A stretch of 64,000 nt of DNA from Paulownia fortunei (lineage: Eukaryota > Streptophyta > Magnoliopsida > Lamiales > Paulowniaceae), in NCBI GenBank assembly GCA_019321725.1, contig CM033108.1, positions 9,070,060 to 9,134,059 on the forward strand. Direction: 5' to 3'. The notes beneath the pieces are model-generated. The model searched no databases. It worked only from the letters and a program-made list of their open reading frames with translations, and was not told the origin of the DNA. Position numbers and translations under genes: made by a program. The stretch's first letter is position 1, and each line of letters opens with the position of its first letter. Of this stretch, positions 2,943-39,947 are shown in pieces.

Positions 2943-5900
2943 TTAATACAAGAATACCAGAAATAGCATCAAGAAAAGAGATGACAGGTAGTGGCTCGAA
3001 GCAATTATAAGGTTACAGGCTCCACTGGCAAAGCTACCTCCACGGGTGCTTGTGGTTAACACTAAGACGGTCCAATCATCTTCAGTCCCAATGCCAGCTC
3101 CTGTAAACCTGGAGTCATTCAAATATCTTGAATTTTGAGACTCTGTGTAGTTTGTGAGCACCAGAGTCGCAACCCGATGGGGCACACAAACAGGCAGTAT
3201 CATCCCATCTCTCGTGGTGTTGACGTCTATGTTGCATTTCTTTAGAACACTCGGGTAGTTCGAAATCAGTTGCGATTGTGTGGGTGGTGCAGTGTTGGAT
3301 GTGCAGTGTTTGTCCTCTAATTGGTTGGCTATTTCATCAGCAACACAATTGGCATTATCATGCTTCGCAAGAGCTGGAACGTTTGATGATTGCCTGAAGC
3401 TGTTGATTCCCTGAAGTAGATGATCTTCCTCATCTGCAGGAGGTAGGTATTAAAAGTGATATACTCATATATATGCAAAAGCACAAAAATAAGAAGCCAA
3501 GATAGAATTAGAACTCCAAATGCATGCTGCAGACAATAACCTAAAATGACATGTGTTAAGCCATCCACAAGCGCCCACTCCTTGAATTGAAGGCAACAAA
3601 TAGAAGAATTTGCATAGTACCCATAATTTGTGCTTTGTACTCTAAATGGTATCCCCGAATGCATGGATAATGAAAAATCAAGTGACGAGAGATTGTTAGA
3701 ATAAAAGAAAGATAACCAGATCACATAATACTGCCAAAGCTTTCACTGAATAAAGAAAGTATCTTATACTCATTTCATATATCACTTCGCATATGAGTTC
3801 CCCATGATCTCCAGATCTGAACTAATTTAGCATTCGGAGGATTTTAACTGGGGTTATCCAAGCGAGCTTAACGTGTGTTATCGTTTTAGGTCCCCAAGAA
3901 CTCAAGTTCCCGAGTTTGGATCATCTCAGCACGAACTTAGGTACATTTATTTATCTCCAAGGTCGAACTCACTGATTTATCTCCAAATCAAATACGCTAA
4001 TCTTTCAAGAGCTCAAATCAATGAGAAGGTTAGGACAATGTCGACTCTTCGTAACCTAGAACTCCAGTATGTTATGTGTTTGTACCTACATCCCATGGCG
4101 GTAAAGCATCGATATTACACCGAGGCAAGGTCATGGTGAGAGACAGAATCAATTTAAACAGAGACATGTTTGTAAAAATGGCTGGACTAGCAAGTATAAC
4201 ATTACCTAACAAAACTGTATTTGTAGTTGTAGGAGAAGTGTGGAAATAAAAAACATGTGATTTCGAGTCCAATCATTGATATTTCCATCCAAAGAGAGGA
4301 AAGGTTCACATTTGTTAATATAGGAAAATATTCCATTTTCTACTTGATTCAAGTTCTACTCAAAACCATACTAGCTCCAAGAAAAGATGAGATAAAAGGC
4401 AAAGGTTCCCTAAATCTCTGACATGAATAAATAGAGGTCAATCTGAAAAACTATAATTTTTTGCTTCAATTATATTTATGGTTTGTTTGTATTAATAGGG
4501 TTTTATAAAATGTAAGCAGAAGATTCACATGTCTTGACTCATTAAATTCTGAGAAACATATTTTGTGATCTTCTCATATTTAAGGCTTTGTTTAAATCTG
4601 CATTCGATATTTTAAGTTTCTTAAGAATTTTAGTTTTTAAGCCTAGCTGAAGTCTGAGTAGTTGGGTACACATAAATCTATGTGCATTCCTAATGAAGAG
4701 CATATTCATAGAAGCAAATATGATTACCATGATAAGATATTTTCATTTGTGTTAGTTCGTCTAGCACCTATCAGTTGGGATATGCCCTCGGGTTCAACTG
4801 CGAGAACACTTTCACATACCTTAGATTTTATTATGCATAGACTGCCAATAGCCTTAACGCACTATTGAATAAGCTTTTGGTAAAGTTCAATTAAACAAAT
4901 AATTTTTATGGACGTGAATTTTGGGATTTTTTCCCAAACTTTGGTATCGCGATGAAATACTGTTCGTGGAGCCCTAATATGACTTGATTTGACGACAAAG
5001 ATATTCTCAGCCCAATGGCAAGCCTTTGCCTTGGGCCATACTAGCTTTCCTGAATTTATAATTCACAAAGGGCAAAACCCACGAAAAAAAGAAGTAAAAA
5101 ATCGTATAAATTATATCTAGTAGTGCTGCCATAAATTAACGCACATCTTTACTTTTGAAGTAATAAAAAATATAACCAAGACAATTCATTTTGTCATTGC
5201 CGAGTCAGGAATGGCATGACAAGGTTAAGGAATATTTCCATATGATTAGTTGATGTGATTATATGACTACAGCCACACTGGGTGCACAGCAACAAATATG
5301 TGATTGTTCTACTAATACAATTTCTCAGTTAGATAAGATTCCATGTTTTATCCTGAAAATTCTTCAGCAATGAAATCGTAAATTTAGAAATTCACAAAAG
5401 GAATGTCAGATATCTCTATCATTCCATCAACAACCCCAAAAAACTAGTCCTATAATCAGATATAACAACTCAATAACACTATGCATGCATTCAATAACCC
5501 CATTATACCATACATTTAGCAAAATACACAACACTTGCTACACTTATCAAGATTTTGCTATATCCATACCGGGTTGTAAAGCATAATTTTGTTCTTAAAC
5601 TTGGTAAGGGTCTATGAATTTGCAATCTCCAAATAAAGAAAACAAACAAAACAGAAATAGGATTTGCTAGCTGCCACTATTTTCTAACTGTTTCATCCAA
5701 ATAATTTTCTTCTACAGCCTCCCTCTCTTTGTCCGGCAGGCGATACTAATACCATAATGTCAATATAAACATTTATGGTCGACAAGATCTGTAGCAGACC
5801 ACTAACTTAATTAGAAGTTTGAATTCCAATACATTCTGCACTTCTTTAAGAAAATAAATTCATTACTTAAGATGCCCAAAAGAACCGTTTCACATACAAC

Positions 5901-12680: not shown

Positions 12681-12685
12681 TCTAT
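12681..12685. other. 5' target-site duplication TCTAT of LOG-element 1
   Basis: TCTAT directly before the first LTR base is repeated directly after the last LTR base at 22314-22318. Five bases is the expected length for an LTR retrotransposon, and the match is exact. Confidence 0.92.
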
Positions 12686-14468
12686 TGATAAGTGCATATT
12701 TTGACATATTTTTATATCAAATCCTTTATATTTTCCTTACATTATTGTTGTTAATATTATTGTTTTATTAATATTTTGTGTTAGAGAATCAATGAACAAA
12801 AAGACATAAAAAATAACCAAAATAAAATCGAAGAAGACAATACGTTTTGTGAGCAAGTTGGGAAATGATATTTCATTGGATTAAAAGAAGCACCACAATT
12901 AGAAGAAAATGGTCATTTTTGCCTAAGTCCATCGTGTGTAGATTAAAATATATACAAGAAATCACTTGGACTTTGCAAGTGATTGTTGGCTTGCATTAAA
13001 TTCAAAATATGCATGTCTCCAAACTTGTGCAGTTTTCGTATTTTGAGCATAACTCTATGTTAGAATACCCTATGAACCTGAATCTTGTTTTATTTGAAAC
13101 TATAACTTTGCTAATGGAAGTTCATCCCAATTCAACCTTGATTATAGTAGAAAATACGTCCAAGTGTGTGTATTAGAAATAATCTATCTATATTGACACA
13201 TCTCCTTAAATTAAGCATAACTTTCTCTCTAGTGGTTGAAATTAGGTGATTCAAGTTGAAAATTGAATCTAATAGATAAATACACAGCTTTCATGTTGAT
13301 AACTTTTCCAAATTAGCTGATTTCATGGAGAAAAATGTGTGATAAAAATTGGATCTGAAAAGGGTATGTGAATTTAGAGTATATTTGAAGTAAATTTGCA
13401 GTGTATTTGTAGATGCCAATTTAGGCATTTTTCTACTATAAACAGGGGTTCTTGGATGTCATTGAGGATATACACAAAAACCCTTGGAGAAAGAAAGAAA
13501 GTTTTATTGTTGTCTTTCTTTAAGCTAAATTTTCTAGTAGTAATATATGTTTTCTAGTAGTAATAGAAATGTATTATCTAGTTTCTCTTCTATTTTTAGT
13601 CTTTTCTACTTTCATTATGTATTTTTAAATTTTATTTAGTTGAAGAGAAAGGGTGAACCTCTTGATGGAGGAAGACGAATAGTTATAAAGATGCATAATG
13701 TTCAGGTGTGTTGTCTTATAGTTTTAATTTTTGATTAAAATCCTTTCTTATTTTGTGGTGATTCTTGATTTATGTATTATCAATGCCACAACAAATACTT
13801 GGGTTCATTTAGCTTATTGTACAGTTCTACTCCACTGACTGCTAATGTGAAACCTTGATTTGTTGTAAACAAAGGTGTGCATAAATACTTAATCCCATAA
13901 ATAAGTGTTGATGTTAAAACTCTTCTTATTTAGTGGCAATTCTTGATTTTTATATCACCAATGACACAACAAATACTTGGGTTCATTTGACTTATTGTAC
14001 AGTTCTACTACACCGACTGCCAACGTGAAATCTTGATTTATTGTAGATAAAGGTGTGCATAAATACTTGATCCCATAAACAAGTATTGGTGATAAAAGAT
14101 AATTTGCAAACAGTAAGACAATATTATGATTACCTTAATGCATGAGCTATTTGATAACATCTTCCTATTAGAACCTTTATTATGTATGGATTCCAATAGT
14201 GACATTTAAAAGAGGCAAAAAGAATAAATAATTGTTCCTCTATCCAAAGCTCAAGAGCGTATCTCTAATCCTCATTACTTTTATTACTTTGATTTCTTAG
14301 TTATAGCATAAATATTTTTTTATAATTTAAACCACATCCAACCCATCTTTTAAAAAATATAAACCTAAAAACTTCAAAACAACTTCCCTATAAATCGACC
14401 TCGAAGTGTCGAGAAATTTATTACTTGATACAACCTGCAGTTGAGTTTGCAAACTTAAAGTTGTAGCA
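12686..14468 (+). repeat. 5' LTR of LOG-element 1
   Basis: 1783 bases, starting TGATAAGTGC and ending GTTGTAGCA. A probable TATA box (CTATAAACAG) is at 13436-13445, followed by an A/G-rich leader. A tandem duplication of about 178 bases fills 13738-14095. Aligns along its whole length with 20509-22313. Confidence 0.93.
13738..14095 (+). repeat. Tandem duplication (about 178 bp x 2) inside the LTR
   Basis: Two head-to-tail copies, about 13738-13915 and 13916-14095. Each runs from TTCTTGATTT through GACACAACAAATACTTGGGT-type sequence to CCCATAAAYAAGTRTTGRTG. The 3' LTR carries the same doubling at about 21561-21925. The related LTRs at 50.7 kb and 56.1 kb have one unit only. Confidence 0.88.
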
Positions 14469-14474
14469 AGTTTT

Positions 14475-14492
14475 TAGCGCCATTGCTGGGGA
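14475..14492 (+). other. Primer-binding site of LOG-element 1 (Athila type)
   Basis: TAGCGCCATTGCTGGGGA starts 6 bases after the LTR. It differs from the usual Athila-type site TGGCGCCGTTGCCGGGGA at three positions, all G-to-A or C-to-T changes as expected from decay of methylated cytosines. Confidence 0.88.
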
Positions 14493-14667
14493 AGGCAAGG
14501 TAAGTATTTAGGTTCATAAATGTTTATCATTTATAAATATTGTGTGTTTATTTTCTTTATGATTATATGTTCATATAATATCGTAGTCATAATTCTTATC
14601 ATTTAGTCAGAAATAATTATGAAATTTTAATTGAAATTTATTTGAATCACCGCCACACACTTCCACC

Positions 14668-15968
14668 GTGGCTAAAATTGAAAGTGTCCAAAATGAAAAT
14701 GAGAATCAACAGGTGTGTACCATGCATTATTACTTGCAACCTCGAAATTCTTCTCTTTTTTGTTTTATTTTTTCTCTCAATGCAAATAACTTTCGATTCA
14801 AGCTAGGTATGATCCTTTTACTTCCTAATTTTCATGGTTTAGACTCTCAAAGCCTTTATTTGTATCTAAAAAACTTTGATAAAGTATGTGCCACTTTTGA
14901 AGATCAAACTTGTACAAATGAGATTGTTAGACTCAAATTATTTATTTTTCTTTAAAAAGATAAAGAAAAAACTTGGTTTAACTCTTTAAAACCTAGGTCA
15001 GTGGCAAGAAATGTAAGATGAATTTTTGAAAAAATTCTTTCCAACTCATAAAACTAATGCCTTTGAAAAGACAAATCCAAAATTTTTCTCAAAATTCTAA
15101 TGAAGTTTTTTTTCAATGGTGGGAAAGATTTAAGAATTTATTGAATTCATGTCCACATAATAGTTTTGAAAAATGACACTTAATTAGTTTTTTTTATGAA
15201 GGTTTAAACTCCTTTAACAAAATAATTTGTTGAAAATTCAATGTATAATGGTGAATTTTTTTATAAAGAACCTAATAACGCCCTAGAATATCTAGACCAT
15301 TTGGCAGAAAACTCTGAATCATGACATAGTCTTAATTCTTCTTAAGGTTCTATTAGATCTAATCTTACTAATAGTAATTAAAAAAATATTATCTTAGTCA
15401 AAAAAATGATCTAAGTACTAGGATTGCTAGTTTAATAAGAAAAGTTAAGGCCATGGAACTTAAAAAAGTAAATAAAATTAGATTTGTACAAGATAAAAAA
15501 GTTTGTAGCATTTATGAACTTGTGGGATATTCCACCAATGAATACCTAAATATTGTGGCACAAACAAATGTCATGAACACATTCAAAAAGCCTTTTCATT
15601 CTCTATATTCTGAAACTTACAATCCATAATGGAGAAATCATCCCAAGTTTAGTTGGCGAGATGAGAACTATGCCTAACTACTACATTTATAAAAATCACC
15701 AAACTTTCCTTCTTATCCAGCTCCATATAGAAAATCTTTTGAGGAAACTTTGAAAGAATTTATTCATGCACAAACAAACATTAATAACCAGACTTCACAA
15801 GCCATCAATGAGATCAAAAGTACACTTTCAACATTGACAACCTCTTTGCGTACTCATGAAAAAGATAAATTTCCTGCTCAAGCTCAACCTAATCCTTCTA
15901 CTCAATGTCATGTTTCTTTTTCATGTGAATATTCAATCAAGAAAGCTAATTCAATCACAACTCTTTGA
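14668..15968 (+). pseudogene. Athila-type gag remnant of LOG-element 1
   Basis: The opening frame (14668-14955) holds the Athila/Gypsy gag block NFHGLDSQSLYLYLKNFDKV and CTNEIVRLKLF; after a stop it continues as KDKEKTWFNSLKPRS. The zinc-knuckle area near 15495-15600 reads VCSIYELVGYSTNEY followed by VMNTFKKPF and SLYSETYNP; two Cys and the His have become Tyr. Then comes a Thr/Ser-rich tail with FIHAQTNINNQTSQAINEI. Many stops; non-functional. Would have formed the capsid of the parent element. Confidence 0.88.
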
Positions 15969-16079
15969 AATAGAAAAGTTGTTGATAAAATTATTCATCC
16001 TAAGGAGAATCCAAAGTTGGTAACCACTCCTAAACCTCTATCTCATACTTATATAACACCTCTATATTTTCCTAGTAGG

Positions 16080-17166
16080 TTAGCAAATTCTAAGAAAAAT
16101 GAGCAAGAAAAGGAGATTCTTAAGACTTTTCAAAAAGTGGAGGTAAACATCCATCTTCTTGATGTGATCAAATAGGGGCCTCGATATACTAAGTTTCTCA
16201 AAGAGCCATGCACTAACAAACAGAAGTTGCGGGGGTGAAAAGTAAGTGTGGGGGAGAATGTTTATGTGGTTCTTCAAAGGAAACTCCTTCCAAAGTGTAA
16301 GGATCTAGGCACTTTTACCATCAATTATACCACTGGTAATACCATATTTGAAAAATACATGTTATATTTGGGAACATCAGTTAATGTTATGCCATATTCT
16401 ATTTAGCTTATCTAAATCTAGGACCTTTAAAAGAAACTATTATTATCATACAATTGGTTGATAGATGTAATGCAAATCCAATAGGGGTTGTGGAAGATGT
16501 TCTTGTGCAGGTGAATGAATTAGTTTTTCCTGTTGATTTTTATGTTCTTGAGATGGAGGATGACGCATGCCCTAATCCTACATGCATTCTTTTGGAAAAA
16601 TCATTCATGAAACAGCCCAAGCTAAAATTAATGTTTATGATGGCACTCTTACTATGGAGTTTGATGGCGAGGTTATAAAATATAATATTTGTGAATCTAT
16701 GAATTATCCTACTCATGTGAAGGTTGTTTCTGCAGTTGAAATTATTAATCCCAAGTCAATGTTTGAGTTTACTGGCAAGGATGGAGTGGAGGTTACTTTA
16801 CAAAAACATCTTCTTATAGAGGATTTGAAATGAAAGAAGTTGGATGTGCAAATGTTGGGAAATGTGGAAAATAATGTAATGTGGCTGGATTCGTTGCCAA
16901 AAAAATTAAGGTATTATATCTTTTATGTTGAATTACTAATATCTAATGAGAGGTTTCTATCTTCTGTGGTGTAGACACCTAAAATGGAGCTTGAACCAAT
17001 TCCACACCATCTTAAATATGTCTACTTGGGTGAAAAAGAAATATCACTAGTCAGCTTTGCTAAAGACCTCACTCAAGTACAAGTGGACAAACTTATTTGG
17101 GTACTTCAAAATTATAAGATGGTGATTGGATGGACAATGACTTTGGCAGCATATGTTGATGAGTGA
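16080..17166 (+). pseudogene. Aspartic protease region and pol N-terminal stub of LOG-element 1
   Basis: Broken frame with typical Athila protease-region blocks: DLGTFTINYTTGN, YLGTSVNVMPYS (the catalytic DLGA-type motif with its Asp changed to Tyr), then IQLVDRCNANPIGVVEDVLV, VNELVFPVDFYVLEME and KINVYDGTLTMEFDGE. From 16984 the linker to RT appears (LEPIPHHLKYVYLGE, LIWVLQNYKMVIGW) and then stops. RT, RNase H and integrase, several kb in an intact relative, are missing. The sequence passes straight into the GGGAGGCAACCCAAC motif common downstream of integrase in plant Gypsy elements. Confidence 0.85.
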
Positions 17167-17649
17167 TAAAGAAGGCAATGTCGAGTTGAGGACATTAAGC
17201 CAAACGCTTAATGGGAGGCAACCCAACGGATGGAAATGAAGACTATGAGAGCTGACAATCATAGATTTGCTTTCTCTAACTCTTATTCTCTTTTCTTTTT
17301 ATCCATTTGATTTTTTTTTACTTTTTTTCTATTTTATTTTATCTTAATCGAAAATGTGTGCTGACAATGTGGTAGGTAGTATTTTTTAAAATTGTCATGC
17401 AAGAGCACATGGTAGTCACTTTTCGATAAAGAAAACTATTGTAAAGATCTTGCAATATTGATTTAATTAACTCACTCTTTTCAAAGATACTTGCAATTTC
17501 TACAAAAGTTAGGAAAATTATAAAAAATTATGATCCTTCTAGGTTAAGTGACGGGTAACGATACTCTGTGGCTATTTAAGTCGGACTTATCAATTTTTCA
17601 AACAATTGATACACAAAAAAAAACAAAATGAAACAAAACAAAATAAAAA

Positions 17650-18156
17650 AATGCAAGTTCCTTAAGAGTGGTTTCTAAAAATTAAGAAGATAAAATTCAA
17701 TTCATTAAGGATAGACTGAGTAAGGAGTCTCTAAATGATATTCGATTGACTCTTGAGACACATTCTTGCGAATTCGTACATCATGCAATTCTTGATTTAT
17801 GGAATCACTTATGTGATGAATATGAACATTATAGTCATGGGAATCTGACATTAAAAGACTTTATTTTCCAATTTATAAGAAAACTGAATGGGAAGCATAT
17901 CCTCGACCCATAAGGGCGTTTAAGCCGTTTCTAAACGTAAAACCAAGAAAGATGCGAACCATAATCATAACTACGTGTACATTCATGTGTAGTAGTTAAT
18001 TTTTTTTCAAACTTTGTGTTGTAATTTTCAACCTTTCTGATAAAAGAAAAAAGACATGCAACAAATGTTTCCCTATTCATACCTCAATAAATAGCACCTT
18101 ATTTACTCAATTTTTACACAACTCACTTTCAAAAAAAAAAGAAAGAAAGAAAGAAA
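17650..18156 (+). other. Family-conserved non-coding segment upstream of the captured LOG
   Basis: About 500 bases, alignable with 47096-47585 in the second LOG-bearing copy, for example GGTTTCTAAAAATT and TAAAATTCAATTCATTA. Shared CTCAATAAATAGCACC (near 18084 and 47530) could be a core-promoter or 5' UTR element brought with the gene. An AAAG repeat of four units precedes the LOG start codon here but not in copy 2. No ORF. Whether it is captured LOG 5' UTR/promoter or retroelement leader cannot be decided by eye. Confidence 0.65.
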
Positions 18157-18809
18157 ATGAAAGGGTCTTCCACTCACAAGTTCAACTGTATTTGTGTATT
18201 TTGTTGAACCAATCCAGAAAAAAATAATGAGTTTATAGGGCAACCAATAATTTTGGTAGAACTTTAGTAGAAAGAAAAAATTATTTAGTGTATGGGGAAG
18301 CCAATCTGGGGTTATTGGGGAGTATTACTACTTCTACTCATGTAAGAGGAGTCAAAGTTTTAGGAGTTATCCCAAAACCTTTAACAGTACAGAATATCAC
18401 ATGTTTAATCATTGGAGATAAGCTAAAACTGTCATATATTCAGGACAGAATGCCTAATATGTTAAACAATGTGGATGCATTCATTACTCTACCTGATGAT
18501 TTTAGTACACTAGAGGAATTATTCCAAGTTGTCTCTTGGGTACAACTCAACATTCACCATAAATTTGTAGGTATTCTTAATGTTAATGGTTTCTTTGATG
18601 GTTTGCTCTCTTTTGTAGATCATGCTATAGAAAAAAGTTTTATTTCATCATCTGCGAGACAAATTCTCATTTTTGCTCCAACACCTGACCAACTGATTGA
18701 TCAACTTCTAGCATATGTGCCTGAACTTAATTCTGCTTTAGCTTGTGTGGATTGGTCCAACAGGGATAATGGTCGAAAATGCAAAATGAATTTAACTCTC
18801 AACTTGTGA
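18157..18809 (+). pseudogene. LOG-like: Captured intronless LONELY GUY (LOG) gene, copy 1, decayed
   Basis: LOG enzymes are cytosolic phosphoribohydrolases that release active cytokinin from its riboside 5'-monophosphate. The start ATGAAAGGG opens a frame leading to FNCICVFC, then a TGA stop and a 1-base deletion near 18237 break it. From 18288 it is open for 173 codons to TGA 18809. Family blocks are clear: LGLLGSITTS, GVKVLGVIPKPLT, VDAFITLP, TLEELFQVVSWVQLNIH, VGILNVNGFFDGLLSF, SARQILIFAPTPDQLI. Restoring the lost base would give about 217 codons, the normal LOG length, with no introns, although plant LOG genes are multi-exon. The nucleotide-binding PGGxGT motif has become PDDFST, destroying the phosphate-binding glycines. 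It is a pseudogene within an LTR element, on the element's strand. The parent subtype is not assigned. Confidence 0.93.
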
Positions 18810-20508
18810 AATTTATCCTTAATGGTTTCAACTAATAGTGTATATATTGTGTTGTTTCAGCTTTATTTTTCAATAAGTCACATTTCAGGTAATATTTTTT
18901 AAACTCTATTTTCGACATTGGGCATAATGTCTCGATTAGGTTGGGGAAGGAAATAGTTGATATTATGTCTTGTGTGTTCAATGTATGTTTTTTTTTTTGA
19001 AAAAAGAAAAAAAAATCAAACGTGTTTTCTTTTGGATCTGTTGAAACCATTAAAATGGTGGCAAAGTAAAGGGTATCTTTAGCACTCTTAAGATGTACTC
19101 TTATATTTATTTTATTTTTGCATAAAATGACAAGTTTGTGAAGTTTTTAACAAAAGTTTGTGAATTGTCAATTTGTTTTTGAGTCGTAGATGTTCTTCTA
19201 ACTTCAATGATTAAAATTAAGTATGAATAATGTTGTTTGATTTATGATGGGTATTGTTTTAAACTTTGATGTTGTTCTTTAGTTAATATATTTTTGCGAT
19301 AATTATACTCAAATCTTTTTACACAAATAGTTATGTTATTCGGTGTGGAGACAAGCATATCAAAATAGGTAGTTTTTATGCCTTCACTTTAATCATCACT
19401 TGAATTTTCGATATGTAGGGATTGATGTTAGAACTTTTCTTTTTGGCCTGTTGAGGTAAATGACTGATTGAACACCACTTGAAAAATGATTAAGGTATTA
19501 GGTTTTCTAGCACCATGGCCAAATCAGTTTGTTCCTCATGTGATATTCCAAGAGAACATCCCCCATAGTAAGCCACTTTGAGTTTTTCAATAAATAAGCC
19601 ATTTTTTCTGTGGTAATCATATCTTCTTACCTAGCTTAAATACACTATTATCTTACCCTTATTCTAAAAATAATTTGGAGCTTAAGATATTGCATTGACA
19701 AAGTGAGCTTGCAAAATAAATTTAGGTTGGAATAAAAGATAAGTGTGGGGGAGTTTCTTCTAAAAAAAATTACAAAGTGTTAAAAATATTATGAGTTGCA
19801 ACTAAAAATTAGATATTGCAAAATCAATAAGAATGATGAAAAGGGGTCCAATTCAATAAGAATAGGCCCCGGTGTTAAAATTCATGGAGTATGAGAATTC
19901 TTCATTGATAAACTCTATATCTCTAATCCCATGAAGTTTTTAGAACATTGCTTGCATCCTATTCTTTTATTTTTTAGCCACATCACTACCATTTGACCCC
20001 ATTACAACCTTTATTAAAAGTCTTTTGATTTTGTGTGGTTCTTTCAGTGTAGTAGAGATTTGTACCAAATGAAGAGCCTATGATGTTTAACTCTTTCATT
20101 AGAGATTAGGTGATGGTTTTGTGAGGTTATATGGGAATTCACTTGTTTGAAGCATGCATGGTTTTGTCACTATTGACAGTAACTATTCACACATACACTT
20201 GAGTATGCTTGATGTGGAAATATATTTACTTTTGATGACTAAGGGTTAGACTCAACACTTGTTTGATTTCATTTTCATATTACTTTGTTGCTTCATGAGA
20301 ATAATGGTTGAAAATTAGTTATCATATGTGTTTGTGGGTATCACCACTGGAAACCCTTACGAGATTATAACTCATCTCTGTAGGCCACCTAGGGGTTTAA
20401 AGGCTTGTTGCATATGCTAAATGCAATCGTGATTTTCTATAAAAGTGGATTAGTTTAAGTTTGTTTTAGGTTTGCTCAAGGACGAGCAAATGTTAAGTGT
20501 GGGGAATT
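18810..20508 (+). other. 3' non-coding region of LOG-element 1 with polypurine tract
   Basis: The first 180 bases match the second copy (CTTTAATGGTTTCAACTAAT-type block, then an ACATTGG...GGTTGGGGAAGG motif common in plant Gypsy 3' regions), and weaker similarity continues to about 19200. There is no supportable ORF. The region ends with GTTAAGTGTGGGGAATT at 20492-20508, the likely polypurine tract immediately before the 3' LTR. Confidence 0.72.
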
Positions 20509-22313
20509 TGATAAGTGCATATTTTTATATATTTTTGTATCAAATCCTTTATACTTTCCTTGCTTTATTCTTGCTAATGTTATATTTTTATTAATATTTT
20601 GAGTTAGGGAATCAATGAATAAAAAAAGATAAAAAATAGCCAAAATAAAATCGAAGAAGACAACACGATTCATGAGTAAGTTGAGAGATGATATTTCATT
20701 AGATCAAAGAAATATCACAATTAGAAGAAAAGTGTCATTTTTGTGTAAGTCCATCATATGTAGATCAAAATATATGCAAGAAATTAATTGGATTTTGCAA
20801 GTGATTGTTAGCTTGCATTAAATTCAAAATAAGCATGTTTTTAGACTTGTATAATTTTAGTATTTTGGGCATAACTCTATGTTCAAATGCCCTATAGATA
20901 TGAATCTTACTCTATTTGAAAGTGAAGAGATAGAACTACAAGTTTGTTGTTGGAAGCTCAGCCCAATTCAACCTTGATTATAGCAAAAATTGCTTCCAAA
21001 TATGTGCATTTGAAATGATCTATTTATGCTAACACATCTTCTTAAATCAAGCATAACTTTTATTCTAGTTGTTGGAATAAGGTGATTCAAGTTGAAAAAA
21101 TAAAGCTAATAGATAAATACATAGTTTTCATATTGATCACCTTTCAAAATCAGTTGATTCATGAACAAAAATGTATAACAATCGAATCTGAAAAGGACAT
21201 GTAAATTTAGAGTATATTTGAAGTAAATTTGAAGTGCATTTAGAGTGAACTTGGAGATACCAATTTGGGCACTCTTCTACTATAAATAGGAGCTCTTGGA
21301 TGTCATTGAGGATATACGCAAAAACCCTTATAAAAAGGAAGAAAGTTTTATTATTGTCTTTCTTTAGGCTAAGTTTTCTAATAGTAATAGAAATGTATTC
21401 TCTAGTTTCTCTTCCTATTTTTAATCATTTCTGCTTTCATTATGTCTTTCTGAATTTCATTTAGTTGAGGAGAAAGAGTGAGACTCTTAATGGAGGAAGA
21501 AGAATAGTTATAAACATGCATAATGTTCATGTGTGTTGTATTATTGTTTTAATTTTTGATTAAAACCCTCCTTATTTTGTGGCGATTCTTGATTTATGTA
21601 TCACCAATAGCACAACAAATATTTGGGTTCATTTAACTTATTGTACGGTCCTATTCCATTGACTACTAATGCGAAACCTTGATTTGTTGTAGACAAAGGC
21701 ATGCATAAATACTTACCATCCCATAAATAAGTGTTGGCGTTAAAACCCTTATAGTTTAGTGGTGATTATTGATTTTTGAATCACTAATGGCACAACAAAT
21801 ACTTAAGTTTATTTAACTTTTTGTACGATTCTACTTTATTGAGTGCTAACGTGAAACCTTAATTTGTTGTAAACAAATGTGTACATAAATACTCGATCCT
21901 ATAAATAAGTATTGATATTAATAAATAAGTATTGGTATTAAGAGATAATTTACAAAAAATAAGACAATATCATGATTATCTTAATACATGAGCTATTTGA
22001 TAACATATTCCCATTGGAACCTTCATCATGTGTGGATTCCAATAGTAGCATTTAAAAGAGATAAAAATAATAAATAATCGTTTCTCTATCAAAAACTCAA
22101 GAGCGGATCTTTAATCCTCAGTACTTTTATTACTTTGATTTTTTAGTTATAGCATAATTTTTTCTTTATAATCTAAACCACATCCAACCTATCTTTTAAG
22201 AAATATAAACCCACAAATTTCAAACAACTTGTTTGTGGATCGACCTCGGACACTCAAGAAATTTATTACTTGATACAACCTGCACTTGAGTTTGTAACCT
22301 TAAAGTTGTAGCA
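20509..22313 (+). repeat. 3' LTR of LOG-element 1
   Basis: 1805 bases from TGATAAGTGC to TTGTAGCA, aligning with 12686-14468. Clear TATAAATAGG core promoter at 21281-21290. It carries the same internal duplication at about 21561-21925, plus a short extra duplication of AATAAGTATTG near 21900-21935. TCTAT follows at 22314-22318. Confidence 0.93.
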
Positions 22314-22318
22314 TCTAT

Positions 22319-24618: not shown

Positions 24619-25218
24619 TGTTGGAGTCCACCACATAAAGAAAAAGAAAAAAGAGTCAAAAATAGAGGGCTATGAAATGACAGCCCCCAATCCCATTCTT
24701 GATTGTTTGGTATAGAGTCAAACAATTATCCCCTCCCTTGCCTATAAAAAGGCTTGAGGAGGAGTTGCAAAATATACACCAAGCAAACACAACAATCCAA
24801 GAGAAATAGCTTGGATACAAGATAGAGAGCAAGTGTAGACATCTAGATAGAGCAATTTGTGAAAGTCAAATTGTGATAGGTGTGGGAAAACACTTGGTGT
24901 TTTTTCTCTTTGGCAATACAAAGGGATTGGAAGAGTATTTTTTGGTAACTATTAGAGTGATTGTACAAGAGTCTTCTATTCTTAAATTTGGGCATAAAAC
25001 TCAATGGTGTATTTTTCTTGTACTGAAAAATTCTCTATTAGTGAAAAATGAGAACTCTCGTGGACATAGGTGGATTTTTCGAACCACGTAAAATCTCTGT
25101 GCAATTTTATATTTTATCAGTATTATTTTTTTTTATCGTCGTTCTATTGGTGTGATTTTCTGAATATTTCTAATAAATCAAATCTCAAATTCCTAATTAC
25201 TTTCGATGTGCCTAACTA
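24619..25218 (+). repeat. 5' LTR of Copia B
   Basis: About 600 bases from TGTTGGAGTCCACCAC to CCTAACTA. Strong TATAAAAA box at 24743-24750 inside CTTGCCTATAAAAAGGCTTG. Closely similar to 26750-27346. Confidence 0.92.
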
Positions 25219-25219
25219 G

Positions 25220-25232
25220 TGGTATCAAAGTT
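25220..25232 (+). other. Primer-binding site of Copia B
   Basis: TGGTATCAAAGTT directly after the 5' LTR, a slightly changed tRNA-iMet site. Confidence 0.85.
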
Positions 25233-25267
25233 ATTTGGTTGAGACTAATATTGAGATTTGATTTATT

Positions 25268-26473
25268 ATGATGGATGGTGTGTCGATGAAAAATCCATTC
25301 AAGGTGCAACAATTTGATGACAAAGGGAATTTTACTCTTTGGCAAAGAAGGATGAAGGATCTCCTAATTCAACAGGGCCTAGCAGTGGCATTGAAGGGAA
25401 AGGAAGGAAAACCAGAAGTTATGAAAGATGCACAGTAGGAAGATTTGGAATCACACTGTGTCAGCACGATTCGGCTTTATATTGCGGACAACATTATCAA
25501 TAATGTTGTGGATGATGATTCTGAAGATTTGACACCAAAGCTGTGGGCAAAATTGGAGAACTTGTATCTTAGAAAAAAATTATCTACAAAGTTATTTCTA
25601 AAGCGGCAATTCATAGGTTGAAGATGCAGAAGGGTGAGTGTCTTATAGATCACATGAACCAGTTTAACAGACTAGTGGATCAACTGCAGAAAGTTGATTT
25701 GAAGATTGAGAAAGAAGATAAAGCCCTTTTACTTCTTATCTCACTCTTGGATTCATATGATAGTCTAGTGATGACATTGTTGTACGGGAAAGATACACTA
25801 GACCTGGAGTATGTAAAAGCATCATTGTTGTCCCATGAAAACAAAAGAAGACAAACCAGGAAGTGGAACAAGAATCTGCTTTGGTTGCTTAGGGCATGAA
25901 TCAGAATGGAAGAAAATTTGGTGGTGGATCTATGAACAGCAGGCCAGGTTCAAAGGCTAGGGGAAAGGGAAAGGTCTGCTTTGAATGCCAAGAGGAGGGT
26001 CCTTCAAGAAAAAATGTCCTTACAGAAGGAAGAATATAGATGGTGAAGGTGGCAGTAGTAATTTGGTAATAACAGATATATATGATGGAGATATTCTCAC
26101 AATCTCCACATTTATGGATACTTCTTCTCAAAATGGATGGATTTTAGATTCGGGAGGCATAATACATGTGTGCTCCATAAAAGATTATTTTGATTCACTT
26201 CAATTAAAGAGGGCAAGTACTTTGTCCTTGGGTGATGGTTCTACTTGTAGAATCATGGGATTTGGAGTGGTGAAAATCAAAATGGTTTATGGAGCGAATC
26301 GTACTTTGGGAGGTGTGGCATATGTCCCAAAAATATGAAGGAATCTAATTTTCTTGAGTCAGTTAGATTCCAGGGGCTGTAAGTATTCAGCTGGAGGTGG
26401 AGTCCTGAAAGTCACATGTGGCGGAAGGATTCTAATGATAGGAGAGAAGTATGGAAATTTGTATCATCTGTGA
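25268..26473 (+). pseudogene. Copia B gag-protease remnant
   Basis: Gag begins at ATGATGGATGG with KNPFKVQQFDDKGNFTLWQR and RRMKDLLIQQGLAVAL, then an in-frame stop at 25436. Later parts lie in other frames: ECLIDHMNQFNRLVDQL and DSYDSLVMTLLYG from 25618. The zinc knuckle CFECQEEG...FKKKCP near 25978-26020 is split by a one-base shift. The protease motif is WILDSGG at about 26137, followed by DYFDSLQLKR, LGDGSTCRIMGFGVV and YVPKI. After a stop the pre-integrase start (NLIFLSQLDSRGCKY, YGNLYHL) ends at 26473. Nothing of the rest of pol remains. Confidence 0.87.
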
Positions 26474-26749
26474 CCTCAATGGATGACTTGAAGTGGAACG
26501 CACCAGAAGACTTCGAGGGAACAGACAGGTGTGAAGAAAATCCTGTTGGGTGAGAGGATGGATCGAGGTCATCCCTCTTGGAAGTCAACTAGTGGTGTTG
26601 ATTGAGCTGTATGTGTGCGTTGGCCGACTTAAATCAGGTGGAGTTAGGACTTTATTGATTATGCATGTGCAGTGAATTTATTAAAGGCCATTCTTTTTTT
26701 GGTATTTTTGGTTTGCAGACAAAAGTGTTTTATGGTGGAGGTGGAGAAT

Positions 26750-27346
26750 TATTGGAGTCCACCACACACAAAGAAAAAGAAAAGAGAGTAAAAAATAGAG
26801 GGCTATGAAATGAAGGCCCCCCAACCCCATTCTTGATTGTTTGGCATGATACCAAATAATTGTCCCCTCCTCTTGCCTATAAAAAGGCTTGAGGAGGAGT
26901 TGCAAAATATAAACCAAGCAAACACAACAATCCAAGAGAAATAACTTGGATACAAGATAGAGAGAAAAAATAGAGAGCAAGTGTAGACATATAAGGAGAG
27001 CAATTTGTGAAAGTCAAATTGTGATAAGTGTGGGAAAACACTTGGGGTTTAAAGGAATTGAGAGAGTGTTTTTTGGTAACTATTAGAGTGGTTGTACAAG
27101 AGTCTTCTGTTCTTGAGTTTGGGCATAAAACTCAATGGTGTATTTTTCTTGTATTGAAAAATTCTCTATTAGTGAAAAATGGGAACTCTCGTGGACGTAG
27201 GTGGATTTTCCGAACCACGTAAAATCTTTGTACAATTTTATATTTTGTCAGTATCATTTTTTTATCGTCGTCCTTTTGGTGTGATTTCCCGAATATTTCT
27301 AATAAATTTAATTTTAAATTTCTAATTGCTTCCATTACGCTCAACA
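26750..27346 (+). repeat. 3' LTR of Copia B
   Basis: 597 bases. The first dinucleotide is TA where the 5' LTR has TG; the end is CTCAACA. TATAAAAA is at 26878-26885. TSD TGTAG follows. Confidence 0.92.
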
Positions 27347-28609: not shown

Positions 28610-28658
28610 AGGTATGGTGAAAGATGATGGCAAGGATTTAGAGAGCTACAGGGATAAT
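28610..28658 (-). pseudogene. Gene 5'-end fragment, copy B, distal part
   Basis: On the minus strand, CCCTGTAGCTCTCTAAATCC matches CCCTATAGCTCTCTGAATCC in copy A near 24235. It continues the fragment at 37041-37262 across the Copia C insertion; ATAAT at 28654-28658 is the duplicated target. Confidence 0.65.
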
Positions 28659-30657
28659 TGATAAAGTAGAATGCTCATCGCCCCAATTATATTGGGTTGA
28701 GTGTATTGTACTTTTTTTATTTTGTATAAACAATCTTATTGGAAGTATATTAGTAAAAAGCATTCTTTTTTATTTTATGTATTGCATCTTTTATTTTTAC
28801 ACATTAGATAAAGTGCTTAAACCAAATTTAACTACAGGGCATGGTTGCACATATAATGGCAATCATAAAACATACAATAAGTTTCAAGTCGAGAGTTTTT
28901 TGAGATGGGACATCAAGTGACTTAGTAAAACTCGCACATACGTTGCATGCTTGTGAGATGAGTATGTCACATTCCATTGATATTAGTGTAGAGACGCAAG
29001 TGTATGTATGTGGGTGTTTGTTAGGCAACAAGTACATCGAATATAGCCCGCAAGGAATTCTTAGCTGAAGGCTTTGCCTGTCGAAATAAAAATTTATGTG
29101 TTGCGATAGTACATGGCTAGTCCTTGGACTTAAGGCATGATGGTAGTCTTGTGTGCATTCTGCAATATTTTGATATATCTTCTAATTGCTTGACAATTAC
29201 AAATAGTGCATGTTGGGTATTATACTGGTATGCATAGAGGTTTGTTAGTCGCCAATACAGAATTTGATACTTATTTTTTAAATAATAGAACCTCCTGTGT
29301 TTTCATAGTTCGTGATTCAAAAACCTTGGCTAAGATAGAATGAATCATGATTCGTCAAGAATCATTGAAACTTGAAATAGAATCACAGTTATTAAATCAT
29401 TCAGAGTTTTGACTTATAATCTATGCCGTAAATTCAATCGAGAGATTAGTTGTCAAAAGGACCTTATGTATATAGTGCTCGCAATTGAAATAGGTTTACC
29501 CATTATTTCACTCGAGACTAATTTGTCATGATTACTTGTTAGGTGTTTACATGGATAGTGAGGTTCTTGGAACTAAAGAATTAATTCCAAGTGGATTAAT
29601 TAATTAATGAAATTAATTAAAATAAATATTATTCAGAAGTTGTAATGTTGCAAACCCAATACTAGATTAGTAGTGAACATAGGAGAGTCACACATTATGG
29701 AAAGTAATATTTCTAATTATGAGATTTATTCAATGGTTGAAAATTAATTAATTAATATTTGATATTTATCCAATAGAATTTAATATTCGGCCATTAGGAT
29801 TTATTTTATATAAATATATTTTAATAATATATTTGATATATATCTATCTTGATATTATTTGAAGAGTTCAAATTAATATCAAAAATATATGTAGATAATT
29901 TTTATGACTAATGTAGTTTCAAATAAATCCACATACATTGGAGAGAGAAAAAGAAAAGAGTTATGAAAGATTTAGAATTCTTTCAGGATCAAACTTTGAA
30001 ATAGTTAAAAATTGACAAATTCCCCAAGAGTTGGAGTAGGAGCAAATTTTCAACCCCTATATATAGAGAGAGGGTCGAGAATTGCCTAGAAATTTTGGCA
30101 AAAATGATTTTGTTTTGTCTTCTATTTTTCTCTCCAAGAAAAGAAAAGAAAAGAAAAGAAAAAGAAAAAGTGTTTTCGAAATCTTGATTTTCTTTAAAAG
30201 AAAACTAGTTTTTTGATATTTTCTTTTTATATAAATTTCAAGAACTTAAAGAATCAATCTTTATTATTCTTGAAAGTTTATTCTCGATCCATCAATTGGA
30301 TCAAAAAGGTAAAATTTACTTTGGATTCAGATTAGTAAACAATTAAAATGATACTAGCAAATCCTTTTAATTTGTATTATTTTTCATATTATAGACCTAA
30401 TGGAGGGGAGACATTTGGATCCTTGTAAGTTTTGAAAGTCCAAGATAAGCAATTGATTGCTTCATTTCCTACAGCAATCGGAATGCATAAATGGTATAAT
30501 CCAAATTTAAATATATTTATTTATATATATTCACTTGAATAAGTGCGATCGTTAGAATAGCTTTCGAATCGAGGGGATAAATTTATTTGATAAATTTATG
30601 TTTGATATTTTTTTTTAATTTTTCGTTGCACATGCCTCTACAATTCTAACGAACCCA
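28659..30657 (+). repeat. 5' LTR of Copia C
   Basis: 1999 bases from TGATAAAGTAGAATGCTC to ACGAACCCA. A TATATATAG box near 30058 is followed by an AAAAG repeat at about 30135-30170. Aligns with 34862-37040, which is about 180 bases longer, largely from extra AT-rich sequence at about 35920-36170. Confidence 0.9.
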
Positions 30658-30661
30658 ATGG

Positions 30662-31910: not shown

Positions 31911-32440
31911 ATGGCAAAAAATCTACTAGCAACAATCCTTGAACAAAACACATTAACTGGACCTAACTTTATCGATTAGTAAGAAACCTTAAAATAGTTC
32001 TTCAATCTGAGAGGAGGGCATATGCCCTTGATGTTGCGCCTCTTTCGATTCTACCAGAGGATATTACTTTAGAGGCTTATGCAGATTACCTACGTCATGT
32101 TGATGATAATCTACAGGCTCGATGCTACATGCTAGCATCGATATCAAATGAGCTCCAGAGGTAAAATGAGGATCAAGATACTACTTATGGGATCCTTCTT
32201 CACCTACAAGAGTTGTATGGTGAGCGTACTCAGCAGGCGAGATATCAAATCTCAAAGAAGCTTTTTCGATATCGTATGACTAAGGGCTCTTCAGTCCAAG
32301 ACCATGGATTGAATATGATAGCCCTTGTTAAAAGGTTGGCATCCCTTGGAGTCATTATGGAGAATGAACTCTATATGGACCTTTCGTTTCTATCTCTGCC
32401 TCCCTCATTTGATACCTTTGTTGTCAACTTTAACTTGTAA
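31911..32440 (+). pseudogene. Copia C gag remnant
   Basis: Starts ATGGCAAAAAATCTACTAGC and carries Copia gag blocks with stops: LLATILEQNTLTGPNF, then from 32213 YGERTQQARYQISKKLFRYR, QDHGLNMIALVKRLASLG and LPPSFDTFVVNFNL. The frame ends at about 32440. The following sequence is integrase, so the downstream part of gag is deleted. Confidence 0.85.
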
Positions 32441-32442
32441 GT

Positions 32443-33335
32443 TTGAAGTGTAGTGCTCGTGGGAACTATAACTACTTCTTAACATTTACCGATGACTTAT
32501 CTAGGTATGGTTATGTGTACCTTTTAAGGTACAAGTTAGAAGCATTTGAAAAGTTTGAAGAATTCATAATCGAAATAAAGAAACAATTTAGCTCAAGTAT
32601 AAAGGCTCTTCAATCTGATCGAGGAGGTGAATATTTAAGTACAGAGTTTTTGGATTATCTAAAAGAGAATGGGATTCTCTCACAATGGAGTCCTCCTGCT
32701 ACTCCAAAACTCAACGGAGGTGCGAAACGCAGAAATCGAACCTCATTAGATATGATTCGATCCATGATGAGTTTCAGTACATTGCCTCTTTCATTCTGGA
32801 GCTATGCCTTAGAAACGGTGTCATACCTATTAAATAAGGTGCCATCTAAAGCCATGTCTAAACACCATATGAGATGTGGTGTAGAAAGAAACCTTTCTAT
32901 AAATACCTTAGGGTATAATGGTGTGCTATTTATGTGAAGCGGCTAATAGGAGATAAGTTGGATATGAGATCCAGTTTATGCAAGTGTGTGGGATATCCAA
33001 AGGAGTTTATTGGATATTATTTCTATGATGCCTCAAAATAAAAGGTGTTTATTTCGAGGAATGCCATATTCCTTAAAGAAGAATTTCTTTTACAGAGTAG
33101 AGGCAAAGTCATGGAACTTGAAGAAATTCAAGAACCACAGTATGCCCCAACTATCGTAGTAGATAATACACTAATTGATGTTAGGTCCTCTGAGGCACAA
33201 CTTCTTCGAAGATCCAAAAAGGTCTCAAGGATATCTAAGAGATACAGCTTGTTGTTAAAGAACAAAGAAGAGGGACACCCCTTGGATAATGATCCAAAAA
33301 GCTATAGAGAGGAGATGTCGGAGAAATGGCAATAA
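32443..33335 (+). pseudogene. Copia C integrase core and linker
   Basis: An open 164-codon stretch reads YFLTFTDDLSRYGYVYLL, ALQSDRGGEYLS and NGILSQWSPPATPKLNGGAK, so the second Asp and the Glu-region context of the DDE core are visible, then LDMIRSMMSFSTLPLSFW. It lacks the N-terminal HHCC zinc domain and the first catalytic Asp region, removed by the deletion at about 32440. From 33045 a linker frame runs to 33335 (EIQEPQYAPTIVVDN). Confidence 0.87.
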
Positions 33336-34810: not shown

Positions 34811-34861
34811 GAACATGGACCTTAGATACATAGGTAATTGGGGCTAGGGCAAGTGGGATAT

Positions 34862-37040
34862 TATTAGAGTAGGATGCTCATCGCCCTAATTAGATTGGGT
34901 GTATTATACTCTTTTTCTTTTGTATAAACAATCTTATCAGGAATCATATTGATAAAAAGGTATTTTCTTTATTTTATATCTTACATCTTTTATTTCTGGA
35001 CATTAAATAAAGTCCTTAGATCAAATTTAGATACAGGGCATAGTCGTGCATATGATGGCGATCATAGAATATACCTCTATGACTTTGGTCTTAAATAAGT
35101 TCCGAGTCAAGAGTTTTTTGAGATGGGACATCAAATAAACTCGCACATACAATGCATTCTTGTTAGACGAGGATGTCACATTCTATTGACATTAGCGTAG
35201 AGACACAAATGCATGTATTTGGGTGTCTGTTAGGGAATAAATACACCAAACATAGCTTGCAAGAAATTCTTAGCTAGTGGCTTTGCTTGTCGAAATAAAA
35301 ATTTATGTGTTGCGATAGTACATGGCTAGTCCTTAGACTTGAGGCATGATGGTAGTCTTGTATGCATCCTGCAACACTTTGATATATCTTCTGATTACTT
35401 AACAATTACAAATAGGATATGTTGAGTGTTGCTTAACATAGAATTCGACACTTATTTTTTAAACAAGGGAATCTTCTTAAGTCGTGATTCAAAGACCTTG
35501 GCCAAGGTAGGATGAATCGTGAATTATCAAAAATCTTTAGAACTTGAAATGGAATCATAATTATTGAATTATTTTGGGTTTCTCTTATAATCCATGCCCT
35601 AGATTCAATCAGAAGGTTAATTGTCGAAAGAATCGTATGCTTATAGTGCTCGCAACTGAAATAGATTTATTCGTTATTTTACTTACGGCTAGTTTGCCAT
35701 TATTACTTGCTAGGTGTTTTTATGGATAATGAAGTTATTGAAATTAAGAAATTAATTCCAAACGGATTAATTAATTAAATTAATTGTTATTCATAAGTTG
35801 TGAGCCCACTAGTGTTTAGTAGTGAACCAAAGAGGGTCACACATCTTTATAGAAAGTAACATTTCTAATTTTGCGGTTTATCCAATGGTTGGAAATTAAT
35901 TTATTAATATTGATTAATTAATTAATTTAAGAGTTATATTTGATTTAATGGTTAAATTAAATTATTCAATTAACTAATTTAATTATTTAATTAGACCTAA
36001 TTTGATTAGGAAGTCTAATTGGAATAAATTAATTGGATTGATTAATTTGGGATTAAATCAATTGGATTAATTTATGAATTTTTTGAAGTCTAAGCCCAAA
36101 AATTAAATAGAGAATAATTTATTTAATTAACACATTTATAAATAAATAAATAAAATAGCTTAATTTTATAGGATAAAAATTGGCCACTAAGATTTATTTT
36201 AATTATATAAATATATTTTTGGAATATATTTGATATATATCCATCTTGATATTATTTGAACAGTTCAAATTAATATTAAGAATGTATGTAGACAATTTTG
36301 ATGACTAATGTAGTTTCAAACAAGTTCACATATATTGGAGAGAAAAAAAGAGAAGAGTTATTGGAAGATTTAAAATACTTTCAAGATCAAACTTTGAAAT
36401 AGTTCAAAATTAACAAACTCTCCAAAAGTTAGAGTAGAAGCAAATTTTTGGCTCCTATATGTATAGGGAAAGGAAAAAATTACCTAGAAATTTTAGCAAA
36501 AATAATTTTATTTTGTCTTCTATTTTTCTCTCTATGAAAAGAAAAGAAAAGAAAAGAAAAGAAAAAGAAAAAGTGTTTTCTTAAAATCTTGATTTTATTG
36601 TTCTTCAAAAGAAAACTAGTTTCTTAATATTCTCTTTATATCCAAGTTTCAAGAACTTAAAGAATCAATCTTTATTGTTATTGAAAATTTATTTTTAATC
36701 CATCAACTAGATCAAAAATACAAAATTTACTACGGATCCAAATTAGTGAACGATTAAAAGGATACTGACGAATTCTTTTAATTAGTGTTACTTTTCATAT
36801 TGTAGACCAATAGAGGAAACACATTTGGATTCCTGCGAGTTTTGAAAGTTCAGGATAAGCAATTGATTGCTTCATTCCTACAACAATTAGAGTGCATGAA
36901 AGGTATAATCCGAATTTAATATATTTATTTATATATATTCACTTGAATAAGCATGATCCTTAAAATCACTTTCGAATCGATGATTTGATAAAAAAAATTA
37001 ATTTTCTACTGCACATGTCCCTACAATTCTAGCGAACCCA
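34862..37040 (+). repeat. 3' LTR of Copia C
   Basis: 2179 bases beginning TATTAGAGTAGGATGCTC (first dinucleotide mutated from TG) and ending AGCGAACCCA. An AAAAG repeat lies at about 36538-36572. TSD ATAAT follows. Confidence 0.9.
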
Positions 37041-37262
37041 ATAATAACAACAGGCTGCAGAGGGCACTTAGAGTTCCAGCAAATGCAGCAAACACCATAC
37101 CTTCTGCTACTGTATAAAGAATGGAAGCATGGGTTTGCACAGTAAACATTGTATGAAAGGTTAAAATAAAGAAAGTAGAGAGATGCTTTCAATAAAGAAT
37201 GAAAAAGATAAAAACAGAAAAACTGTAAGTTAGGTTATTTATATAAGTTACATATCAATTGA
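37041..37262 (-). pseudogene. Gene 5'-end fragment, copy B, proximal part (TATA box, leader, ATG)
   Basis: On the minus strand this reads CTTATATAAATAACC (TATA box), a pyrimidine-rich leader with CTCTCTACTTTC, then ATG at 37149-37147 opening MFTVQTHASILYTVAEGM and continuing FAAFAGTLSALCSL into the Copia C target site. The frame ends shortly after the insertion at 28.65 kb. Looks like a promoter plus first exon; parent gene not recognised. Confidence 0.65.
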
Positions 37263-37688: not shown

Positions 37689-38131
37689 TATTGATACATT
37701 TTTTATTTGCATCCATATTTATGATTAGTTAGAGTCCTGTTTGGATAAAGGTGATGGTTATAAAAAACCCCTCCTGATCGGACTCAAAGAGTGATAGGGA
37801 TAAAGATAGTCTTTTTTGTTATCTCTTCCTACCACTATAAGATATCACAATGATATGTAATTTAACTAACAGAAAAATATTCTCTCTTCTCCATATTCTA
37901 TCTATGTTTATTCTTGGAGTATCACCAAAAAACTTAGAAATCTCCATAGTTTTAAGTTGTGTAGTTAGAAATTAGTGAATGCTCTAGTAGTATTTACTGG
38001 AGCGAGAAAGACTGTGATGATATTATTGGGAGGCTTGTAGGCGAGTTGTTCATCCGTGAATCAAATGAATTTCCACTGCTGAGGTAATATTGATTCAATT
38101 ATTATTTATATGTGATTATAAATTGCTTACA
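37689..38131 (+). repeat. 5' LTR of Copia D
   Basis: 443 bases from TATTGATACATTTTTT to GCTTACA, closely similar to 44279-44720. Confidence 0.93.
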
Positions 38132-38132
38132 G

Positions 38133-38146
38133 TGGTATCAGAGCCA
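38133..38146 (+). other. Primer-binding site of Copia D
   Basis: Perfect TGGTATCAGAGCCA, complementary to initiator tRNA-Met, one base after the LTR. Confidence 0.95.
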
Positions 38147-38429
38147 ATAGGGCTCGACCTCACCTTCGTGATTTAAATTCAATCATGAAAATAGACTTTG
38201 AAGATTATACGTATATTTGTATGTACAAATGCATGTTTAAATTCAATTGATGCATAATATTGATGTCATATTGTAAAACATGAAAAGATATTTTTTTGGA
38301 AATTAGTGTTTGCCGGAAAAGCGCACCGGAGAACGGCTGCCCACGAGGCGTTAAATTTTTCCTTTATTAAAAAAAGGAAAAAGAATAAGGTTGTTGCTGC
38401 TGCGCCACATGATAAACAAAGCTTACAAA

Positions 38430-38512
38430 TGGCTGGTGTGTGCCAGCCACATGCTGGCACACGCCAGCACAAGCTGGCAAAGCCAGCTGCTACTGGGCAC
38501 TTGCCAGCTGGC
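38430..38512 (+). repeat. GC-rich hairpin array in the Copia D leader
   Basis: Three adjacent perfect 7-bp inverted repeats, then a palindrome. TGGCTGG/CCAGCCA at 38430-38449 (6-nt loop); TGCTGGC/GCCAGCA at 38452-38469 (4-nt loop); AGCTGGC/GCCAGCT at 38472-38488 (3-nt loop); GCCAGCTGGC at 38503-38512. All share a GCTGG/CCAGC core. The array lies between primer-binding site and gag, where packaging or dimerisation signals are expected; function is inferred only. Confidence 0.88.
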
Positions 38513-39935: not shown

Positions 39936-39947
39936 GGTGACAAGTCT

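Follow-up and report, generated by a model that had tools for sequence, protein, structure and literature searches.

A broken LOG-family gene in an LTR retrotransposon of Paulownia fortunei, probably one dead copy of an accessory gene that resides in an Athila-like lineage

Most extra genes carried by plant LTR retrotransposons have no known domain, according to the available part of a 2022 screen of LTR consensus sequences (PMC9289625). The same part records the YgdH domain, which is found in LONELY GUY (LOG) proteins, for two species of Citrus and, once one filter was switched off, for Populus trichocarpa as well, in agreement with a 2011 report (Steinbauerova et al. 2011). A LOG relative inside Ty3/gypsy elements is already known. 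No LOG-related words were found in the accessible text of three articles on plant elements (PMC11963269, PMC7264820, PMC6317226). The altered pocket, the C-terminal tail, the clade, and the amplification in Lamiales described here were not found in print by a literature search that left most subscription journals outside its reach.

We analysed a 64,000-nucleotide stretch of Paulownia fortunei DNA (GCA_019321725.1, contig CM033108.1), referred to as the window, in which a broken LOG-family gene is enclosed by an LTR element at 12686-22313. The preliminary description had placed the gene inside an Athila-like element with a TCTAT target-site duplication (TSD), and we located the LTR pair, both TSDs, a primer binding site (PBS), and a polypurine tract (PPT). 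The features are as follows.

12681-12685, no strand: left TSD, TCTAT, read from the sequence
12686-14468, plus strand: 5′ LTR, which pairs with the 3′ LTR
14470-14491, plus strand: PBS, which we take to be tRNA-Asp-like; relatives have TTTTTGGCGCCGTTGCCGGGG at the same place
14492-16009, plus strand: decayed gag region, from DNA alignment to three relatives
16010-17340, plus strand: remnant of different origin, unalignable to relatives C1, C14, and C16; presumably protease/RT-start-like
17341-17536, plus strand: remnant resembling the integrase zinc-finger region of the relatives (78-79% over about 197 bp)
17657-18156, plus strand: cassette 5′ of LOG, common to the second window copy and the relatives
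18157-18809, plus strand: broken LOG-family gene, with an open part at 18231-18809 and an N-terminal part at 18157-18230 that has an in-frame stop and a frameshift
20495-20508, plus strand: PPT-like stretch adjoining the 3′ LTR, at the same position in relatives
20509-22313, plus strand: 3′ LTR, which pairs with the 5′ LTR
22314-22318, no strand: right TSD, TCTAT, read from the sequence
47586-48212, plus strand: second, decayed LOG copy, found by tblastn with family proteins

The two LTRs (12686-14468 and 20509-22313) are 85.8% identical, with a K2P distance of 0.161 and 12 indel events. With substitution rates between 7e-9 and 1.3e-8 per site and year, this distance places the landing of the element roughly 6-12 My ago. 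Its matches to copies C1, C14, and C16 from elsewhere in the genome cover gag, short stretches around 17341-17606, and the LOG cassette from position 17657 onward. The gag stretch (14469-16009) shares 84.6-86.0% DNA identity with these three relatives; the C16 ORF that it matches is a PF03732 gag, and the C16 ORF that matches 17341-17536 contains Integrase_H2C2. A Pfam scan of the single decayed pieces of the window element recognised no gag or pol domain. The segment 16010-17340 gave no blastn match at E 1e-5 to the upstream stretches of the three relatives. The window element lacks most of pol and has a mosaic look. Recombination with another family is possible for the unalignable segment. 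The upstream cassette holds a 75-aa ORF (17686-17913) that matched no Pfam family.

Translated matches bear out the proposed LOG homology: 18231-18809 matches the PF03641 profile at E 2.9e-26 (92.6 bits against a curated cut-off of 27), and Arabidopsis At2g37210 (PDB 2a33) aligns over 163 residues with 0 gaps (E 2.3e-39). The gene also lies in the element's own sense and has no intron, as first described. Its description as a full-length coding sequence holds for the extent, from an ATG at 18157 to the last base of the stop codon at 18809, but not for a working frame. Codon 17 (18205-18207) is an in-frame stop, a frameshift at about codons 25-30 leaves the N-terminal part in a different frame from the rest, the open frame is limited to the 192 codons of 18231-18809, and the PGGxGTxxE motif of the family is eroded to PDDFSTLEE. 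Catalytic Arg99 and Glu122 (CgLOG numbering) are both present, and the C-terminal tail, MNLTLNL, was scored as near LxLxL with no exact match. The stretch 18157-18809 is a dead copy that no longer encodes a working protein. Neutral decay simulated from complete copies over the LTR age gave a mean of 1.3 stops and 2.4 indels (the latter slightly too high, as the simulation was fed 13 LTR indel events instead of 12) and an expected residue identity of 82% (95% range 76-88%). The window LOG shows one stop and one frameshift and is 72.6-73.5% identical to five existing copies, so it may have been intact at landing, with some older divergence.

The second LOG copy in the window, which the family proteins matched at 47586-48206, is 46.8% identical to Paulownia fortunei protein P0001 (tblastn). 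Its cassette (47103-48584) is homologous to 17657-19171, flanks included, with 78.5% DNA identity over 1,546 columns. It carries four in-frame stops, a 24-bp deletion, and frameshifts, and these lesions differ from those of the first copy. Comparison of one window copy with the other showed no coding constraint: the ratio was 0.59 (bootstrap 0.36-1.02), and shifted-frame controls gave 0.35 and 0.53. The 58 aligned bp upstream of the ATG are 91% alike in the two window copies. We do not claim a conserved promoter of its own for LOG, since up to 46 bp 5′ of the start in other copies are without clear conservation. The stretches 50231-51241, 52391-52485, and 55650-56665 hold two LTR ends related to the LTRs of the 12686-22313 element (78.6% identical to each other) and an isolated LTR start. 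No PBS follows either of the two ends, which are therefore 3′ or solo LTRs, and one of them probably closes the element of the second LOG copy.

The window contains other elements as well. A copia-like element at 37689-44720 has gag-pol ORFs at 39347-43180 between repeats (37689-38131 and 44279-44720) that are 90.8% identical. Direct repeats of about 2 kb (28651-30659 and 34855-37042, 76-81% identical) surround a copia-like integrase ORF at 32434-32937, and together these are probably a further LTR element. A small non-autonomous LTR element at 24621-27331 consists of repeats (24621-25202 and 26752-27331, 86%) around short gag-like ORFs. The likeliest candidate for a piece of a host gene in the window is a 168-residue ORF on the minus strand at 2943-3449, whose CAP-domain match is only sub-threshold.

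A search of the Paulownia fortunei genome returned 150 scored matches from 3,815 first-look candidates, and the matches other than the window copy are 70-76% identical to the window LOG. In this genome LOG has no intron, follows integrase and precedes the 3′ LTR in the sense of the element, and has multiplied along with it. We aligned 90 genome copies with the two window copies. A complete 217-codon ORF is present in 37 of the 90 genome copies read, a fraction that is no genome average because the copies came from the listed matches and the first 50 were chosen nearly all for open frames. Ten genome copies were taken with their flanks (10 kb upstream and 6 kb downstream): the same LTR flanks LOG on both sides in five, LTR sequence is present on the downstream side only in four, and C815 has LTR sequence on neither side. 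LTR identity is 96.3, 97.9, 98.3, and 99.8% in C1, C14, C786, and C16, respectively, and the elements span 11.35-12.08 kb. The TSDs are clear in C1 (TCCAA) and C14 (GCAAA), 4 bp long in C16 (ATGA), and imperfect in C786; copy C7 sits in a tandem arrangement.

In C16, the only relative scanned, Pfam domains occur in the order gag, RVT_1, RNase H, integrase zinc finger, integrase core, LOG, so that the Ty3/gypsy order of gag, RT, RNase H, and integrase is present. Three C16 pieces, including the one expected to hold protease, matched no family, and pol is not one clean frame because its open frames overlap. Scanning the C16 ORFs (one element, pieces of at least 133 aa) turned up only one RNase H domain. 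An additional RNase H (aRH) marks the Tat lineage, according to the accessible part of PMC6317226, and the single RNase H, seen in this one element, would fit Athila over Tat. C16 is also the youngest dated copy, and the N-terminus of its LOG is broken. It moved with a broken LOG; movement thus does not depend on every copy having a working one, perhaps because the proteins act in trans.

On C3 and C52, host LOG genes are split into fragments spread across about 3 kb. In the C3 gene an exon break falls inside PGGxGT, while the element copies are uninterrupted; the exon-junction comparison confirmed that the host gene is split at several points and that the element LOG is intronless. In peanut, most LOG genes comprise 7 exons separated by 6 introns (available text of PMC13257298). 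Against host LOG protein P0218, the element copies reach only 43-52% identity, measured within the aligned part.

The nearest named proteins to the window LOG come from Paulownia (71-74%), Rehmannia (51-60%), and Orobanche species (41-58%), the last including two protein clusters of 244 and 328 members. A profile search brought in, among the best 120 matches listed, many unnamed proteins as well as proteins of Populus, Diplodiscus, and Xanthoceras. A maximum-likelihood tree with 66 rows places the 30 element-type LOGs, which come from Paulownia, Rehmannia, Orobanche, Populus, and Diplodiscus, in a single clade (100/98) and 23 canonical LOGs in a clade of their own (100/99). Paulownia (Paulowniaceae) groups with Rehmannia and Orobanche (both Orobanchaceae; 98/91), and Populus groups with Diplodiscus (both rosids; 99/90). 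The canonical sample consisted of LOG1/LOG3-like proteins together with a single LOG8 and a Striga protein labelled LOG5. Genome contigs yielded at least 579 relatives; the 80 that were kept are bacterial by title, with 15 used in residue counts and 8 in the tree. A pattern search of viral contigs matched 27 stretches, none of them a relative. With the element-type LOGs in a single clade apart from the sampled canonical LOGs, one old acquisition is the simplest reading. Genomic context was read in Paulownia alone; for Rehmannia, Orobanche, Populus, and Diplodiscus, origin in an element is taken from the clade and copy number, plus the published Populus elements.

The 30 element-type LOGs have five Xanthoceras segments as their sister group (98/93). 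Xanthoceras is a rosid, so this position is at odds with the host tree, and its LOGs may belong to an element lineage that is older or may have been acquired separately. In Xanthoceras P0242 and P0243, two LOG segments that keep the canonical pocket are joined by a stretch resembling retroelement gag-protease. Such an inter-LOG stretch is present in two of the three Xanthoceras models. The best window match of the P0242 stretch is 16068-16160 of the LOG element (E 2.6e-4), a sign of LOG within related elements in Xanthoceras.

In CgLOG, catalysis is proposed to depend on the pair Arg99 and Glu122, the adenine is held by Met96, Lys100, and Glu121, and a putative prenyl pocket comprises Met96, His97, Lys100, Glu125, and Trp129 (PMC4979012, in the part available). 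We counted these residues in 173 of the 224 listed relatives and in 81 of the 120 canonical LOGs (start Met, 205-230 residues). Arg99 is present in 161/173 relatives, Glu122 in 168, and both in 157. The PGGxGTxxE positions are likewise kept (G115 in 163, G116 in 169, G118 in 168, T119 in 164, and E122 in 168). His97 is present in one relative, and Lys100 and Glu125 in none (0/173 each); all three are changed in 172/173 relatives and all present in 81/81 canonical LOGs. Leu, Ile, or Met occupies the position of Lys100 in 171/173. Trp129 is present in 131/173, with Arg in its place in 33 of 35 Orobanche proteins. Three Xanthoceras proteins retain the canonical pocket.

Relatives in the clade mostly end in a basic stretch and LxLxL. 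This motif lies within the final 12 residues in 131/173 relatives, 0/81 canonical LOGs, and 0/35 Orobanche proteins, a count made without bacterial LOGs, whose rows are match segments lacking true ends; among the Paulownia copies it is found in 87/90. One form of the EAR repression motif has the consensus LxLxL (PMC9956375, accessible part). A structure model (mean pLDDT 70.6, 17 rows), used only for the fold and the disordered tail, has AtLOG3 as its closest PDB match, and residues 202-217 form the disordered tail. The sequences are related, so the residue and tail counts are not independent events, and most simply the pocket and tail changes arose at the base of the clade.

Selection was assessed by counting changes along a tree of 91 copies and comparing N/S with the value expected under the same mutation spectrum. 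With all copies included, internal branches had an N/S of 0.65 (P 0.001) and terminal branches one of 0.85 (P 0.009), with no clear difference between the two (P 0.066); the values are lowered because copies were chosen by protein similarity. Complete ORFs alone gave 0.59 on internal (P 0.014) and 0.84 on terminal branches (P 0.15; difference P 0.21), and for broken ORFs alone the internal value was 0.61 (P 0.0003) and the terminal value 0.89 (P 0.049), which differ at P 0.019.

We consider it quite likely that an accessory gene resides in an Athila-like Ty3/gypsy lineage and that the window LOG is one of its dead copies. The LOG coding sequence would have been acquired once, before the asterid and rosid copies split, probably via spliced RNA, and would afterwards have spread by retrotransposition with weak purifying selection. 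The preliminary description instead had this very element taking up a host LOG mRNA during reverse transcription. A LOG without introns between LTRs with a TSD, and the introns of the host LOG genes, would suit such an event, but a recent capture is highly improbable: it is contradicted by the 150 scored genome matches, the shared flanks of the second window copy, an identity of just 43-52% to host LOG, and the position of the window LOG in one clade with the asterid and rosid LOGs of other genera. It is also unlikely, though less so, that LOG is an old passenger useless to the element, with complete ORFs marking young copies and the altered pocket marking early decay. The two window copies give no coding signal against each other, terminal branches are close to neutral (0.85), and C16 was recently mobile despite its broken LOG N-terminus, although proteins may have been supplied in trans. 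A passenger would not be expected to show complete ORFs with the same catalytic residues in asterids and rosids, an internal N/S of 0.65, and pocket replacements and a tail that recur across families.

The product might still activate cytokinin: intact element LOGs would release the active hormone, host cells would keep dividing, and transposition would be favoured. The LOG fold, with a model closest to AtLOG3, the retained catalytic Arg and Glu, and the canonical pocket of the three Xanthoceras relatives are consistent with this role. We nevertheless regard it as quite unlikely, given that Lys100 and Glu125 are replaced in 173/173 and His97 in 172/173 relatives and that, in the accessible part of PMC4979012, alanine at AMP-binding or catalytic residues of CgLOG nearly abolished activity. 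Judged from its sequence, the element LOG is probably no longer a cytokinin-activating enzyme, and the initial label of a hormone-activation gene is doubtful, the cytokinin pocket being altered in relatives and the window copy being dead. Tentatively, the intact protein could be a nucleotide 5′-monophosphate phosphoribohydrolase or nucleotide sensor of altered base specificity, made in the host, with a tail that may recruit TOPLESS-type corepressors. We are more doubtful that the lineage rebuilt the LOG pocket for another nucleotide and added a basic TOPLESS-recruiting tail, making an accessory, retained in both asterids and rosids, that would manipulate host nucleotide signalling or silencing, not cytokinin.

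Several proteins in the element clade are named as cytokinin-activating enzymes, including Populus P0287 and P0321, Rehmannia P0013-P0017, and Orobanche minor P0096, and these are probably misnamed transposon genes. The two Populus proteins bear the name cytokinin riboside 5′-monophosphate phosphoribohydrolase, and the Orobanche clusters (244 and 328 members) would inflate hormone-gene counts in parasitic plants; annotations of this kind call for caution.

Canonical LOGs such as AtLOG3 (2a33) and AtLOG8 (1ydh) share with the element LOG the fold, PF03641, the catalytic Arg and Glu, and, in most intact element copies, PGGxGTxxE. The element LOG differs from them in being intronless, in its replaced His97, Lys100, and Glu125, in its basic and LxLxL tail, and in its place inside an LTR element. 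That place, in sense between pol and the 3′ LTR, is also where Athila and other plant LTR elements carry aORF-3S or env-like ORFs (PMC7264820, in the part available); unlike these env-like or unknown proteins, the element LOG has a recognisable enzyme fold. The fold is well studied and its active-site residues are defined, so the role of this accessory becomes testable. An m6A demethylase domain in orchid Ty3/gypsy elements is likewise a host-type enzyme domain fixed in elements, but it is another enzyme and a recent acquisition (accessible text of PMC9289625), whereas the element LOG appears old. Closest are the Citrus and Populus elements with YgdH, which also hold a LOG-family domain in Ty3/gypsy elements, and the Populus LOGs fall in the same clade here. 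The available part of that report (PMC9289625) gives presence only, to which the present analysis adds complete Lamiales elements, copy numbers, a tree, the pocket, and the tail.
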